Position numbers and translations under genes: made by a program
Assembly (NCBI GenBank): GCA_012518975.1
Contig: JAAYRC010000206.1
Location: 1 to 32,862, forward strand
From: Clostridiales bacterium
GTDB lineage: Bacteria; Bacillota; Clostridia; Lachnospirales; Lachnospiraceae
Reading direction: 5' to 3'
Length of the DNA stretch: 32,862 bases
Shown: piece by piece, positions 16,875 through 22,075 of the stretch
How the letters are laid out: each line of letters opens with the position of its first letter
Numbering within the stretch: the first letter of the stretch is position 1
Notes under the pieces: model-generated
What the model was told of the DNA's origin: nothing
The model's input: only the letters and a program-made list of their open reading frames with translations
Databases searched by the model: none

Positions 16875-16919
16875 GGGGACTTTCTCTTAAATATTAGTTG
16901 AGATGTCCCCCATTTTATT
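16875..16919. terminator. Terminator between convergent genes
   Basis: GGGGACtttCTC...GAGatGTCCCC followed by CATTTTATTT. Confidence 0.75.
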
Positions 16920-17959
16920 TATTTCTTAACTAGTGCTTCAAAGCCCTTGCTGAATTTCATAGACCCATCATGGAATACCCATAGGGCCTCTGTATCCTCT
17001 AAGCTTTCTATAAGAGCGATTCCCTGGTCGTAGGGCATGTTATAAATTGCCGTGGAGAGAGTATCAGCCATGCCAGAATCTTGGCAAATAATAGACACTG
17101 CTGAAAAATAATTTGCAGGCATTAGGGTATCAGGGTCAATAATATGGTGATATTCTTTACCTTCTACAGTGTAGTATCTTTCGTAATCACCACTAGACAC
17201 CAAGGATAAATCCTTTAGGGCAAGAGTAAATAGGCTATACTGGTCTGAATCCTTGTCAGGATTTCTGATTCCTACATTCCATGGAGCATTTTCTTTACCT
17301 TTTCCTCCTATAGCACGGACATTACCTCCGATACTTAATAAGAGGTTTGTATAACCCCTATCTATAGCGGCTTTAGTTACTTGCTCTGTGGCATATCCCT
17401 TAGCTATGGCCCCTACATCTAGGCTCATGTCCTTGTCTTGTAAAAACACTGTTGACTTAGCTTCATCAATAATCAGATTATCCAAATTGGTATGGTTATT
17501 GGCCTCTTTTAATAGGTCCATAGGTGGAAGCTTTGCGTTTGTTGGATCATTAATTCCCTCTGTACGATAATCATGCCACATCTCAAGAACGGACCCCATG
17601 CCTATATTAACTGTACCCTTAGATATCTCATATCCTTTAATAGAATATTTGAGCAAGTCTATTATCTTTGAGTCTACTTTAACTGGCTCTATACCAGCAT
17701 TATCATTAATAGTTTTTATATTATTAATTCCATCATATGAATTATACTTATCATAAAGCTGGTGATATATTTCAAGTTCATCACGTATAAAATTAGCAAG
17801 CTCCTTAAATTCATCTTCATTTTTTGTGTAGGCCACAATTTCTGTAACTGTATTAAATAAGAATAAAAAGCTACCCTCATACTTCTTCGGGGCTTGGCTG
17901 CAAGAACTTGTAATAAGGATCGTTATTATTAGCAAGGATGCAAATATATGTTTTTTCAT
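16919..17959 (-). CDS. apbE: FAD:protein FMN transferase (ApbE), lipoprotein
   Basis: Lipobox-like ILITSSCS, SLDVGAIAKGYATEQV, LLLSIGGNVRAIGG, VSSGDYERYY, HHIIDPDT: ApbE motifs. Confidence 0.95.
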   Translation of the reverse strand: MKKHIFASLLIITILITSSCSQAPKKYEGSFLFLFNTVTEIVAYTKNEDEFKELANFIRDELEIYHQLYDKYNSYDGINNIKTINDNAGIEPVKVDSKIIDLLKYSIKGYEISKGTVNIGMGSVLEMWHDYRTEGINDPTNAKLPPMDLLKEANNHTNLDNLIIDEAKSTVFLQDKDMSLDVGAIAKGYATEQVTKAAIDRGYTNLLLSIGGNVRAIGGKGKENAPWNVGIRNPDKDSDQYSLFTLALKDLSLVSSGDYERYYTVEGKEYHHIIDPDTLMPANYFSAVSIICQDSGMADTLSTAIYNMPYDQGIALIESLEDTEALWVFHDGSMKFSKGFEALVKK

Positions 17960-18028: not shown

Positions 18029-18072
18029 GGGGTTGCAAAACATTTTAGTTATCTAATATGTTTTGCAACCCC
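18029..18072. terminator. Hairpin between lipoprotein gene and apbE
   Basis: GGGGTTGCAAAACAT-N14-ATGTTTTGCAACCCC, perfect 15-bp stem. Confidence 0.7.
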
Positions 18073-18119: not shown

Positions 18120-19151
18120 CTATTTTGCGCTAGCTCCAGCCTTTTCTACTGCTGATATAAAACCATCAATAGTTATTGTAACTGATCCAACCAAATCTTC
18201 ATCAGTAGCCACACCATGTTCTAATGTAAGGCCTGTGATATCGGATATCTTCTTGCCCTTCATATAATTTGAGAATGCCTCTGATTGTTCAAACCACTCT
18301 TTTCCAATATGAGAAGCGGCTTTCATGTTGTAATCATTACCAAGCTCAAGCTTAGTTTTAAAGTCACCTGTAAGCTCAGAGGTAAGCTTGCCCTCAGCGT
18401 TAAAGCTTACATTTGTCTGGGAAGCATCAATGATACTGCTAGTAATGGCACCATTCTTATCAAGGGATACCACATTGTAGTGAGTGTATGCCTGGATTGT
18501 TCCATCTTCATCTGCAGAAGCATTCTTTGCTCCTTTTCCAGCACCAGAGGTAATACCTAGGCCTAACTTATCGTCAGCCTTTGCACCTAAGTCTTTGGCA
18601 TTATTTACAGCCTTTTCAATTGCAGTAAGTATATTAGCGATGTTCATAGTTACAGAGCTAGTAAGATCTTCATCAGTGGGATATCCATTATCGATAGCAA
18701 TACCCTTAACCTCTGCTAGGGTCTTTCCGATAACATAGTTCTCAAGAGCTTCAGCTTGTTCATCCCATTCCTTGCCTATAGGAGAGGCAGCTTTCATGTT
18801 ATAATCATCACCAAGTTCTTTTTTGCTGATAAAGCTTGTTGCTAAATCTGTTGTGATTTCACCAGTAGCTGAAAAGTTGAATTTTGTCTGAATTACATCA
18901 ATGACAATGTTGTTAATAACACCCTTATCATCAACTAAAACAGCAACAGCAGTTGAATCAACCTGGGCTGTTCCATCCTTTTCGTCAGTTGCGTCTTTTG
19001 AACTGCTTGCACTAGTTACAATAGCTAGACCAGTTTTTGCACTAGCGCTCTTGCTGTCGCCACTTTTTGTGCCGTCGTTCTTAGTGCCACATGCAGCAAG
19101 TAAAGACATAGCTAATACAGCTATTAATATAATTGATACTATTCTCTTCAT
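18120..19151 (-). CDS. Secreted lipoprotein with two tandem 157-aa FMN_bind-like repeats (candidate flavinylated protein)
   Basis: Signal peptide and lipobox LLAAC; repeats share ELG[DN]DYNMKAAS[PH]IGKEW and TDEDL..SVT at identical 157-residue offset. Domain identity is inference. Confidence 0.75.
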   Translation of the reverse strand: MKRIVSIILIAVLAMSLLAACGTKNDGTKSGDSKSASAKTGLAIVTSASSSKDATDEKDGTAQVDSTAVAVLVDDKGVINNIVIDVIQTKFNFSATGEITTDLATSFISKKELGDDYNMKAASPIGKEWDEQAEALENYVIGKTLAEVKGIAIDNGYPTDEDLTSSVTMNIANILTAIEKAVNNAKDLGAKADDKLGLGITSGAGKGAKNASADEDGTIQAYTHYNVVSLDKNGAITSSIIDASQTNVSFNAEGKLTSELTGDFKTKLELGNDYNMKAASHIGKEWFEQSEAFSNYMKGKKISDITGLTLEHGVATDEDLVGSVTITIDGFISAVEKAGASAK

Positions 19152-19428: not shown

Positions 19429-19938
19429 TTAATACATTCCCTTGCTTTGCATGTAGGAAAATATTTGTTCCCCATGCTTTTGTTCTTCTTTTTGGATATG
19501 GTTTAATACATCCCTAACTTGTGCGCTCTTGCATTCAAAAATTGTAGTGTCATAGGTGCTTGATACATATTTTTCGGTACTTAGCATATCAATACACATG
19601 TCCTTATCGGAAGCTTTAAAAGGATTGTTAGGAGATTGGTCGATGGAAGCCTGCTGTGACATAGGCATAGACCCTGTATTTTGTCCAGTTTGTTGTTGCC
19701 CTGTTTGCTGTTGTGAACTTTGGCCAGCCATAGAAGGAACTTGTCCATTCAGTAATTGGTTAATTGTTTGGAGATGCTCTCTTTCCTTTTGTGCAATGTT
19801 CCTAAAAATGGTTTTAAGCTGAGAATCTACAGCTAGATTAGCATAGTTATCATATTTAAGTATGCATTGCTCTTCATGGGTTTTTTGGTCCTGCAAAAGC
19901 AGTTGCTCTTTTGTAGATAATGTCACATTTGTAATCAT
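19429..19938 (-). CDS. CotF-like spore coat protein
   Basis: LSTKEQLLLQDQKTHEEQCILKYDNYANLAVD...LSTEKYVSSTYDTTIFECKSAQVRDVLNHIQKEEQKHGEQIFSYMQSKGMY. ATG at 19938 has GAGGTG RBS; the track start is an upstream GTG. Confidence 0.85.
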   Translation of the reverse strand: MITNVTLSTKEQLLLQDQKTHEEQCILKYDNYANLAVDSQLKTIFRNIAQKEREHLQTINQLLNGQVPSMAGQSSQQQTGQQQTGQNTGSMPMSQQASIDQSPNNPFKASDKDMCIDMLSTEKYVSSTYDTTIFECKSAQVRDVLNHIQKEEQKHGEQIFSYMQSKGMY

Positions 19939-20017
19939 ATTTATCACCTCATAGCATAGTATTTCTAGTAAATTAAAAACTATCCAAATATATTTGGATA
20001 ATTTTTAGGCTAAGATC

Positions 20018-20452
20018 TTATTTATTTGGGTCCATTACAGTAATCTCATTACGATTAATGGACTTATCACATTGTGGGCAATAGTATTTCAACTCGATAT
20101 TATGACCGCATCCTGAATGGATAAGTTGTTTGTGACATTTTTTCAGATTTCTTTCTCCCCATAATATTATACTATTAAATACATCAGTCAAATCAAGACC
20201 GCTTTTAGTTAAGAAATACCGGTATCTAGGAGGGTGGGACTGGTAAAGTTCTGAACCTATAAGTTCATCCTCCTCTAGGGATTTTAACCTATGGGAGAGT
20301 AGATTAGTTGGAATCCCTTCTAATCTTTGTAGGATTTCGGTATAGGTATTATAGCCCATCATAAGTTGACGAAGGATTAGTAGGGTCCATTTGTCTCCTA
20401 TTATATTGAGTGTTTGTGCTATATTACAGGGAAGATTATATAGGTTTTTCAT
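20018..20452 (-). CDS. HxlR family transcriptional regulator with Cys-rich C-terminal tail
   Basis: CNIAQTLNIIGDKWTLLILRQLMMGYNTYTEILQRLEGIPTNLLSHRLKSLEEDELI; tail CGHNIELKYYCPQCDKSI. ATG 20452 is preceded by GGAG. Confidence 0.9.
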   Translation of the reverse strand: MKNLYNLPCNIAQTLNIIGDKWTLLILRQLMMGYNTYTEILQRLEGIPTNLLSHRLKSLEEDELIGSELYQSHPPRYRYFLTKSGLDLTDVFNSIILWGERNLKKCHKQLIHSGCGHNIELKYYCPQCDKSINRNEITVMDPNK

Positions 20453-20504
20453 AATAGTCTCCATTCAGCTGCTTATAGGTGGCAGCAAGTTATTATAGTA
20501 TATA

Positions 20505-21881
20505 TTAATTAGTGAAATCTAAGGTTTCTTGTATAACGTTATCCATCATATCCTTTGTAAGCATAGCAGGGACATATCCATAGACGTTACCATTTTTATC
20601 AATAAGGAAGGTGGTTGGGAAGGCATTGATATAATACTCTCTTAATAAGTCTCCTGTCTCATCAAAAACAACAGGAAAGCTATAGTTATTATCATCTAGG
20701 AAAGCAATTATATCCTCCTTGCTTTCGTCAGCATTGTTAGGATAAGCAGAACTTGATGGGTTTGCTACTCCTAGAATAATTACATCCTCATTATTCTCAC
20801 CGTATTCCTTATAAATCTTCTCAATATCAGGCATCTCCCTTACGCAGGGCGGACACCAGGTGGCCCAGAAGTTTAAGAATACTACCTTGCCCTTATAGTC
20901 AGATAGGGTATGAATGTTACCGTATTGGTCGGTCAAGCTAAAATCTATAGCAGGAAATACATCCTCTTGTGGAGCTTTGTCCTCGTGGTCTGCTTGATCA
21001 TTATTAGTGTCTTCCTTGTTAATTATGTCCTCTGTATTATCAGGGACCTGGCTATCTATATTTGATGGACTATTATTATCAGGGGACTCTTCTCCTGTAC
21101 TAGATGAATCGTCTTTGGTCTGACTATTAGAGCTTCCAAAAGGTTGTGACACTTTATTAAGGTATTTTGATATACCATTCATCCAACCTGTAAATGTCAT
21201 AATACCTATTATAATAAGTAGGATGCCACCAATTTTTACAGTGTATTTTAAAAGCTTTTGTTTTGCTTTTAAGAAGCTAAGTACCTGGGTGGTAAATAGG
21301 CCTATTAGTAAAAATGGTATTACAAAGCCTAGTGAATATAGGATAATAAGTAGATTTGCAATCATGCTACTTTTTGCACTAGAAGCTAAAATAAGTACAG
21401 AGGATAAAGCTGGACCTACACAAGGTGTCCATGCAAAGCTGAAGGTAAAGCCCATTAAAAAAGCTATTAATGGATTCATTTTACTGATATTTATGTTTAG
21501 ACGGATTTTTCTTTCCTTCTTAAGAACTTTAAAATCAAAGAGTCCAACTTGATAAAGACCCAGAACTGTAATTATAATACCACCAATTCTAGTAAATAGG
21601 ATTTGATTTTTATTAAAGAAGCTTCCAAGGGCTGTAAAAGCCATTCCTAATAGAAAGAAAGCAAAGGATATCCCCATAACAAAGAATACAGTATGAAGAA
21701 ATACTGTTGATTTTTTGTATGTTATAGTTCCTTCTTCATCTATCTGTTTAGCATTACCGGCTAGGTAACTCATATAAATAGGGATTAGAGGAATTACACA
21801 GGGAGATAAAAAGGATATTAAACCCTCTAGAAACACTAATAAATAACTTATATTACTTAAAGATACAAGATTTTCGAACAT
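20505..21881 (-). CDS. CcdA-type membrane protein fused to a TlpA/thioredoxin-like domain
   Basis: CcdA motifs FLSPCVIPLIPIYMSYLAG and FAWTPCVGPALSSVL; acidic linker; thioredoxin FLNFWATWCPPCVREMPD. ATG 21881 follows AAGGAGAC. Confidence 0.93.
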   Translation of the reverse strand: MFENLVSLSNISYLLVFLEGLISFLSPCVIPLIPIYMSYLAGNAKQIDEEGTITYKKSTVFLHTVFFVMGISFAFFLLGMAFTALGSFFNKNQILFTRIGGIIITVLGLYQVGLFDFKVLKKERKIRLNINISKMNPLIAFLMGFTFSFAWTPCVGPALSSVLILASSAKSSMIANLLIILYSLGFVIPFLLIGLFTTQVLSFLKAKQKLLKYTVKIGGILLIIIGIMTFTGWMNGISKYLNKVSQPFGSSNSQTKDDSSSTGEESPDNNSPSNIDSQVPDNTEDIINKEDTNNDQADHEDKAPQEDVFPAIDFSLTDQYGNIHTLSDYKGKVVFLNFWATWCPPCVREMPDIEKIYKEYGENNEDVIILGVANPSSSAYPNNADESKEDIIAFLDDNNYSFPVVFDETGDLLREYYINAFPTTFLIDKNGNVYGYVPAMLTKDMMDNVIQETLDFTN

Positions 21882-22075
21882 AGATTGTCTCCTTTTCTTT
21901 AATATACTTTTTAAAATAATATCAAAACGCAACATTTACCACTTAGATATGGAAGTAATTGCAACTATTTTATCATTTGGACTTTACTAAGTCAAGTGAC
22001 TTTACAAATTAAAGTTACACATATAATTCATCATTAGATTATTTAGAAACCTATAAGTATAAATCACATAAAGAT

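Follow-up and report, generated by a model that had tools for sequence, protein, structure and literature searches.

The window, by which we mean the whole 32,862-nucleotide stretch of DNA analysed here, carries on its reverse strand a lipoprotein gene that is followed, 160 bp downstream, by apbE (Table 1). A Coat_F/ferritin-like gene in the position upstream of the lipoprotein gene was seen in close relatives only. At one related locus (L031:1-1941), the ferritin-like frame is apparently joined to that of the lipoprotein, which is itself interrupted; this may be an assembly error.

Table 1. Features of the lipoprotein locus, in window coordinates.
Feature	Position	Strand	Basis or remarks
apbE, FAD:protein FMN transferase (lipoprotein)	16919..17959	-	PF02424, E 2.5e-66
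Strong hairpin between lipoprotein gene and apbE	18030..18071	-	-31.5 kcal/mol, z -6.4; 15-bp outer stem
Two-domain lipoprotein, candidate di-FMN carrier	18120..19151	-	343 aa, coordinates include stop codon; ORF and translation
Repeat/domain 2, residues 195-343	18123..18569	-	Ungapped register of 157, 62/149 identical to domain 1
Candidate flavinylation site 2, D319-L-V-G-S-V-T325	18177..18197	-	Column conservation
Repeat/domain 1, residues 38-186	18594..19040	-	Ungapped register of 157, 62/149 identical to domain 2
Candidate flavinylation site 1, D162-L-T-S-S-V-T168	18648..18668	-	Column conservation; aligned with DAISGAT of 2kzx
Lipobox LAAC, lipid-anchor Cys21	19089..19100	-	From sequence; Cys21 invariant in 68 relatives
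Coat_F/ferritin-like gene, weakly like encapsulin ferritin cargo	19429-19947		Upstream of lipoprotein gene
HxlR-type regulator	20018-20464		Beside CcdA-TlpA gene
CcdA-type membrane domain fused to TlpA/ResA thioredoxin domain	20505-21935		Upstream of lipoprotein gene

When the lipoprotein was compared with itself, an offset of 157 residues gave 63 identities in 156 positions, and the next best offset gave approximately 12%. The two repeats align gap-free, with 62 identities where 2000 shuffles averaged 11.3 and never exceeded 22, which bears out the exact 157-residue register proposed in a preliminary description of this DNA. The sequence also confirmed that DGT occurs in both repeats (residues 59-61 and 216-218) and that the motifs ELG(D/N)DYNMKAAS(P/H)IGKEW and TDEDL(TS/VG)SVT are paired without gaps. 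The proposed pairing of G41 with G198 was wrong, as residue 198 is leucine and the glycines are at 197 and 199.

The AlphaFold model of the lipoprotein had a pLDDT of 93.2 for the whole protein and 95.2 for residues 193-343 (domain 2) alone. In the modelled domain, three strands are followed by helices, and the candidate acceptor threonine is placed directly before the last helix. Foldseek searches with the full model and with domain 2 alone returned no FMN_bind structure among the matches listed, and none of these was below E 0.001; the best ones, which were IscU-like with TM scores of ~0.4, were not accepted.

The best PDB match of the window ApbE was the group 7esa/7f39, FmnB of Listeria, and the protein keeps the equivalents of Ser257, Arg262, His273 and Asp301 of Listeria FmnB; the roles of these catalytic residues of ApbE/FmnB have been described (PMC8906456, PMC12052999). 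It is the single ApbE copy found in the host genome, which is 78% complete. The hairpin that precedes apbE possibly lowers its expression relative to that of its substrate. Runs of at least 10 paired bases were present in 101 of 126 intergenic regions of relatives and in 281 of 630 shuffled ones; this control is weak, and the recurrence of the hairpin across relatives is suggestive only.

Homology of the repeats to FMN_bind domains

The lipoprotein itself did not reach Pfam's curated cut-off for FMN_bind (PF04205), and searches of Pfam, NCBIfam and PDB sequences with the lipoprotein alone yielded merely chance and signal-peptide matches. The family was aligned in sets of 25 and 68 members. PF04205 was absent from the 25 families listed for the latter set, and matches of relatives to MmlI and Skp1 in Pfam, being weak and scattered, were set aside.

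The profile of the 68 relatives matched PDB 2kzx (E 3e-5), placing DAISGAT of 2kzx over D162-T168, and the aligned segment of 2kzx is PF04205 above the cut-off. The same family profile matched two remote relatives, L175 (E 2e-14) and L180 (E 7e-9), in which the corresponding motifs are DAIAGVT and DTIAGVT. Both adjoin apbE, eetA and eetB, and L175 scores above the PF04205 cut-off (1.8e-7). In profile-profile comparisons, the repeat matched the bridge group with 97% probability (E 2e-11), while unrelated neighbour families gave at most 0.4%. The bridge group matched the RnfG-type FMN_bind profile with 76% or 11% probability, depending on the direction of the comparison, and the direct match of the repeat profile to RnfG-type FMN_bind was weak (4%). 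Distant relatives carry canonical motifs at the corresponding place: DVTTGAT in L170 and L171, and DAVSGAT and DEISGAT in L181. We infer from these alignments that DAISGAT, DAIAGVT, DLTAGVT and DLTSSVT may represent a graded drift of one motif.

The FMN_bind search that had been suggested for the repeats gave no direct PF04205 match, and the profiles of relatives reached the FMN_bind proteins 2kzx and L175. Through these two, the lipoprotein is homologous, site over site, to accepted members of PF04205 (NqrC, RnfG; PDB 2kzx, 3o6u), from which it differs in having no direct score and S-V where FMN_bind has G-A. As part of the electron carrier function proposed below, the lipoprotein is very probably a secreted, membrane-tethered protein built of two domains of the FMN_bind superfamily.

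Gene company of the lipoprotein family

Among 99 genomes, comprising that of the host and those of its relatives, 43 contained a match to the lipoprotein, and most strong matches were in the genus from which the window comes. A scan of a genome collection yielded 80 named loci with 43-73% identity, from Lachnospiraceae, Ruminiclostridium, Sedimentibacter, Proteocatella and others. Strong family matches occurred in approximately 40 of the 391 Clostridia-class genomes sampled (~10%) and in a similar number within a phylum-wide sample of 399 genomes. Among plasmids, the search returned a single record, from Acetoanaerobium, which was as large as a chromosome and carried no annotation.

A neighbouring apbE was found in 71 of the 80 named loci, always directly downstream of the lipoprotein gene and on the same strand. 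Several of the other nine end at contig edges, and five whose flanks are intact carry apbE at another place in the genome. About half of the named loci (~40) add ndh2 and dmkB, and mostly dmkA, as identified by Pfam, and these often also hold genes for a NusG_II protein (EetA-like) and a Hpre_diP_synt_I/ECF protein (EetB-like); the names ndh2, dmkA, dmkB, eetA and eetB were assigned from family membership and neighbouring genes, not from comparison with the Listeria sequences. Judged on this basis, the ndh2-dmkB loci of relatives are the Listeria flavin-based electron-transfer locus, with the lipoprotein in the place of PplA.

In the flavin-based extracellular electron transfer (EET) of Listeria, PplA is likewise a lipoprotein with two candidate flavinylation threonines, encoded beside an FmnB-like ApbE (PMC8906456, PMC9973259). 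The acceptors reported for PplA, Thr143 and Thr265, are 122 residues apart (PMC8906456), in contrast to the 157 residues between those of the lipoprotein, the motif of which is DLxSSVT. FMN-bind2 domains are described in PMC11334425 as ~160 aa long and often present in 2 or 4 copies, with insertions after strands 1 and 3 and with the sheets of paired domains face to face, and on that description the lipoprotein resembles them in domain size and even copy number and apparently in the order of strands and helices. Its model also has long segments between strands 1 and 2 and after strand 3; residues 48-59 and 94-109 may correspond to the FMN-bind2 insertions. The SV variant of the motif does not appear in that description. 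The earlier view of a PplA-like di-flavin lipoprotein agrees with the locus position and the adjacency of apbE, and needs amending as to the domain size and the gene content of the host. Since the spacing of 157 residues fits FMN-bind2 as so described and not PplA, the lipoprotein would be PplA-like in its work and locus place and of another domain type.

The window does not contain an ndh2/dmkA/dmkB/eetA/eetB locus. Queries with Ndh2, DmkA and EetB-type ECF proteins (DmkB and EetA were outside the query set) found nothing convincing in the host genome, and because Ndh2 and DmkA were not detected, the Listeria pathway as such was not seen there. This result, together with the Coat_F/ferritin-like and CcdA-TlpA genes upstream of the lipoprotein gene, would suit an alternative in which the lipoprotein is flavinylated and acts with these neighbours in thiol-disulfide or iron redox chemistry of the envelope and not in extracellular respiration. 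However, such neighbours accompany a minority of the named loci (Coat_F 9 of 80, CcdA-TlpA 5 of 80), flavin-EET genes dominate elsewhere, and the host genome is incomplete. We regard an envelope thiol or iron role as unlikely.

Candidate flavinylation sites and the proposed electron carrier

Thr168 and Thr325 end the segments D162-LTSSV-T168 and D319-LVGSV-T325, and both therefore have aspartate at the canonical -6 position. Neither segment matches D-x-x-[S/T]-G-A-[S/T], as D(-6) and T(0) are kept and G and A are replaced. The motif is thus non-canonical, as had been proposed, with V for A at -1, and it departs at a second position, -2, where Ser replaces Gly.

Conservation of the threonine in orthologues had been set beforehand as a point on which its role as acceptor could fail. 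In 300 domains of relatives, the candidate acceptor column contained T in 284 and S in 15, with one domain misaligned; T and S, which ApbE takes alike (PMC12052999), are thus the only residues in that column apart from the misaligned domain, and this restriction was unmatched by any of the domain's other Thr columns. The other motif columns contained D (210) or E (90) at -6, S (209) or A (72) at -3, S (243) at -2 and V (293) at -1. As read from these alignments, the motif of the family is [D/E]-L-x-[S/A]-S-V-T, with two positions changed from the canonical D-x-x-[S/T]-G-A-T. In the fumarate reductase of K. pneumoniae, flavinylation was little affected by replacement of D with A and remained at approximately 50% after A to V or G to A (review PMC12052999). 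The tolerance of these single substitutions makes SV in place of GA plausible, not proven; we came across no published biochemical assay of the two changes combined. The host's own RnfG (L212:6967-7614, contig 57 of the host genome) carries DVYSGST where SGAT is canonical, hinting that the host ApbE may tolerate changes at -1. The homology bridges to FMN_bind, the column restricted to T and S, the adjacency of apbE and the occurrence of relatives in flavin-based EET loci together lend good support to Thr168 and Thr325 as ApbE acceptors in a PplA-like di-flavin lipoprotein. Counting against this reading are the missing direct PF04205 match, the weak comparison with RnfG-type FMN_bind, the Foldseek result, the glutamate at -6 in approximately 30% of the domains and the failure to find Ndh2 or DmkA in the host genome.

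It is conceivable that one site alone, either SSVT or GSVT, is flavinylated and that the other domain is structural or serves in docking. At site 2, position -3 is occupied by Gly in place of the canonical Ser or Thr, and some relatives have Ser for Thr at individual sites. In contrast, the two motif columns are equally conserved when taken separately in the 68 relatives, each with 65 T and 3 S at the acceptor and with V at -1 in 66 and 67 of them, and single-repeat versions of the protein exist, of which two (L176 and L177) adjoin apbE and keep D-L-x-S-K-V-T. A single functional site is thus quite improbable. Similarly improbable is a loss of covalent flavinylation, with the domain instead binding free flavin or some other ligand and ApbE serving RnfG or RnfD elsewhere: the degenerate -2 and -1 positions, the missing PF04205 score and the presence in the host of RnfD and RnfG as possible substrates would allow it, but T or S is retained in 299 of 300 domains, a complete single-contig genome (G123, 100%) keeps eetA-eetB-lipoprotein-apbE with no PF04205 and no PF03116 (the NqrB/RnfD substrate) in a search for these two families, and an incomplete genome (G110), where PF04205 and PF03116 were likewise not found, has apbE beside the lipoprotein gene.

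We therefore consider it very likely, from sequence comparison and gene company, that the lipoprotein carries electrons on two FMN groups attached by ApbE and resembles PplA in function, with ~160-aa domains of the FMN-bind2 type. The adjacent ApbE would transfer FMN from FAD to Thr168 and Thr325, giving two covalent flavins. The lipoprotein would then take electrons from a membrane donor, which in relatives with the full locus would be Ndh2/demethylmenaquinone together with EetA. In the host, the genome of which contains Rnf genes including those for RnfD and RnfG, the donor is possibly Rnf. The tethered lipoprotein would pass the electrons on to acceptors outside the cell, in the manner of Listeria PplA.

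The 2021 flavinylation census relied on PF04205 and the [S/T]GA[S/T] motif (PMC8238504) and, being based on PF04205, would not see this family by that model. Given strong matches in ~10% of the Clostridia-class genomes, often in flavin-based loci, PF04205 would miss a sizeable set of electron-transfer carriers. It is probable that ApbE has, in [D/E]-L-x-[S/A/T]-S-V-T, a second and widespread recognition motif, which many Clostridia would use in their chief extracellular flavin carrier and which PF04205 surveys miss, and that some of the 'orphan' apbE genes of the census serve such lipoproteins. The principle is known; a motif variant of this kind, in a family that is large and invisible to Pfam, has not been described in the literature consulted. 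If flavinylation at the SV motif is true, ApbE recognition would be redefined.

RnfG-type FMN_bind proteins of Clostridia vary at -6 too, and related arrangements were seen in other proteins. An ORF neighbouring one related locus (L168:2821-3873, reverse strand) fuses a canonical FMN_bind domain (VDTVSGAT) to a domain that resembles the lipoprotein family and ends in DVVAKATMSL. At L172:3628-4647 and L173:2973-3974, which are from the same genus, an RnfG-like protein combines a canonical SGAT with an inserted middle domain like that of the lipoprotein (DVVSGVS); the cluster around it is of the Rnf type, includes another apbE in L172, and is followed by EetA- and EetB-like genes.
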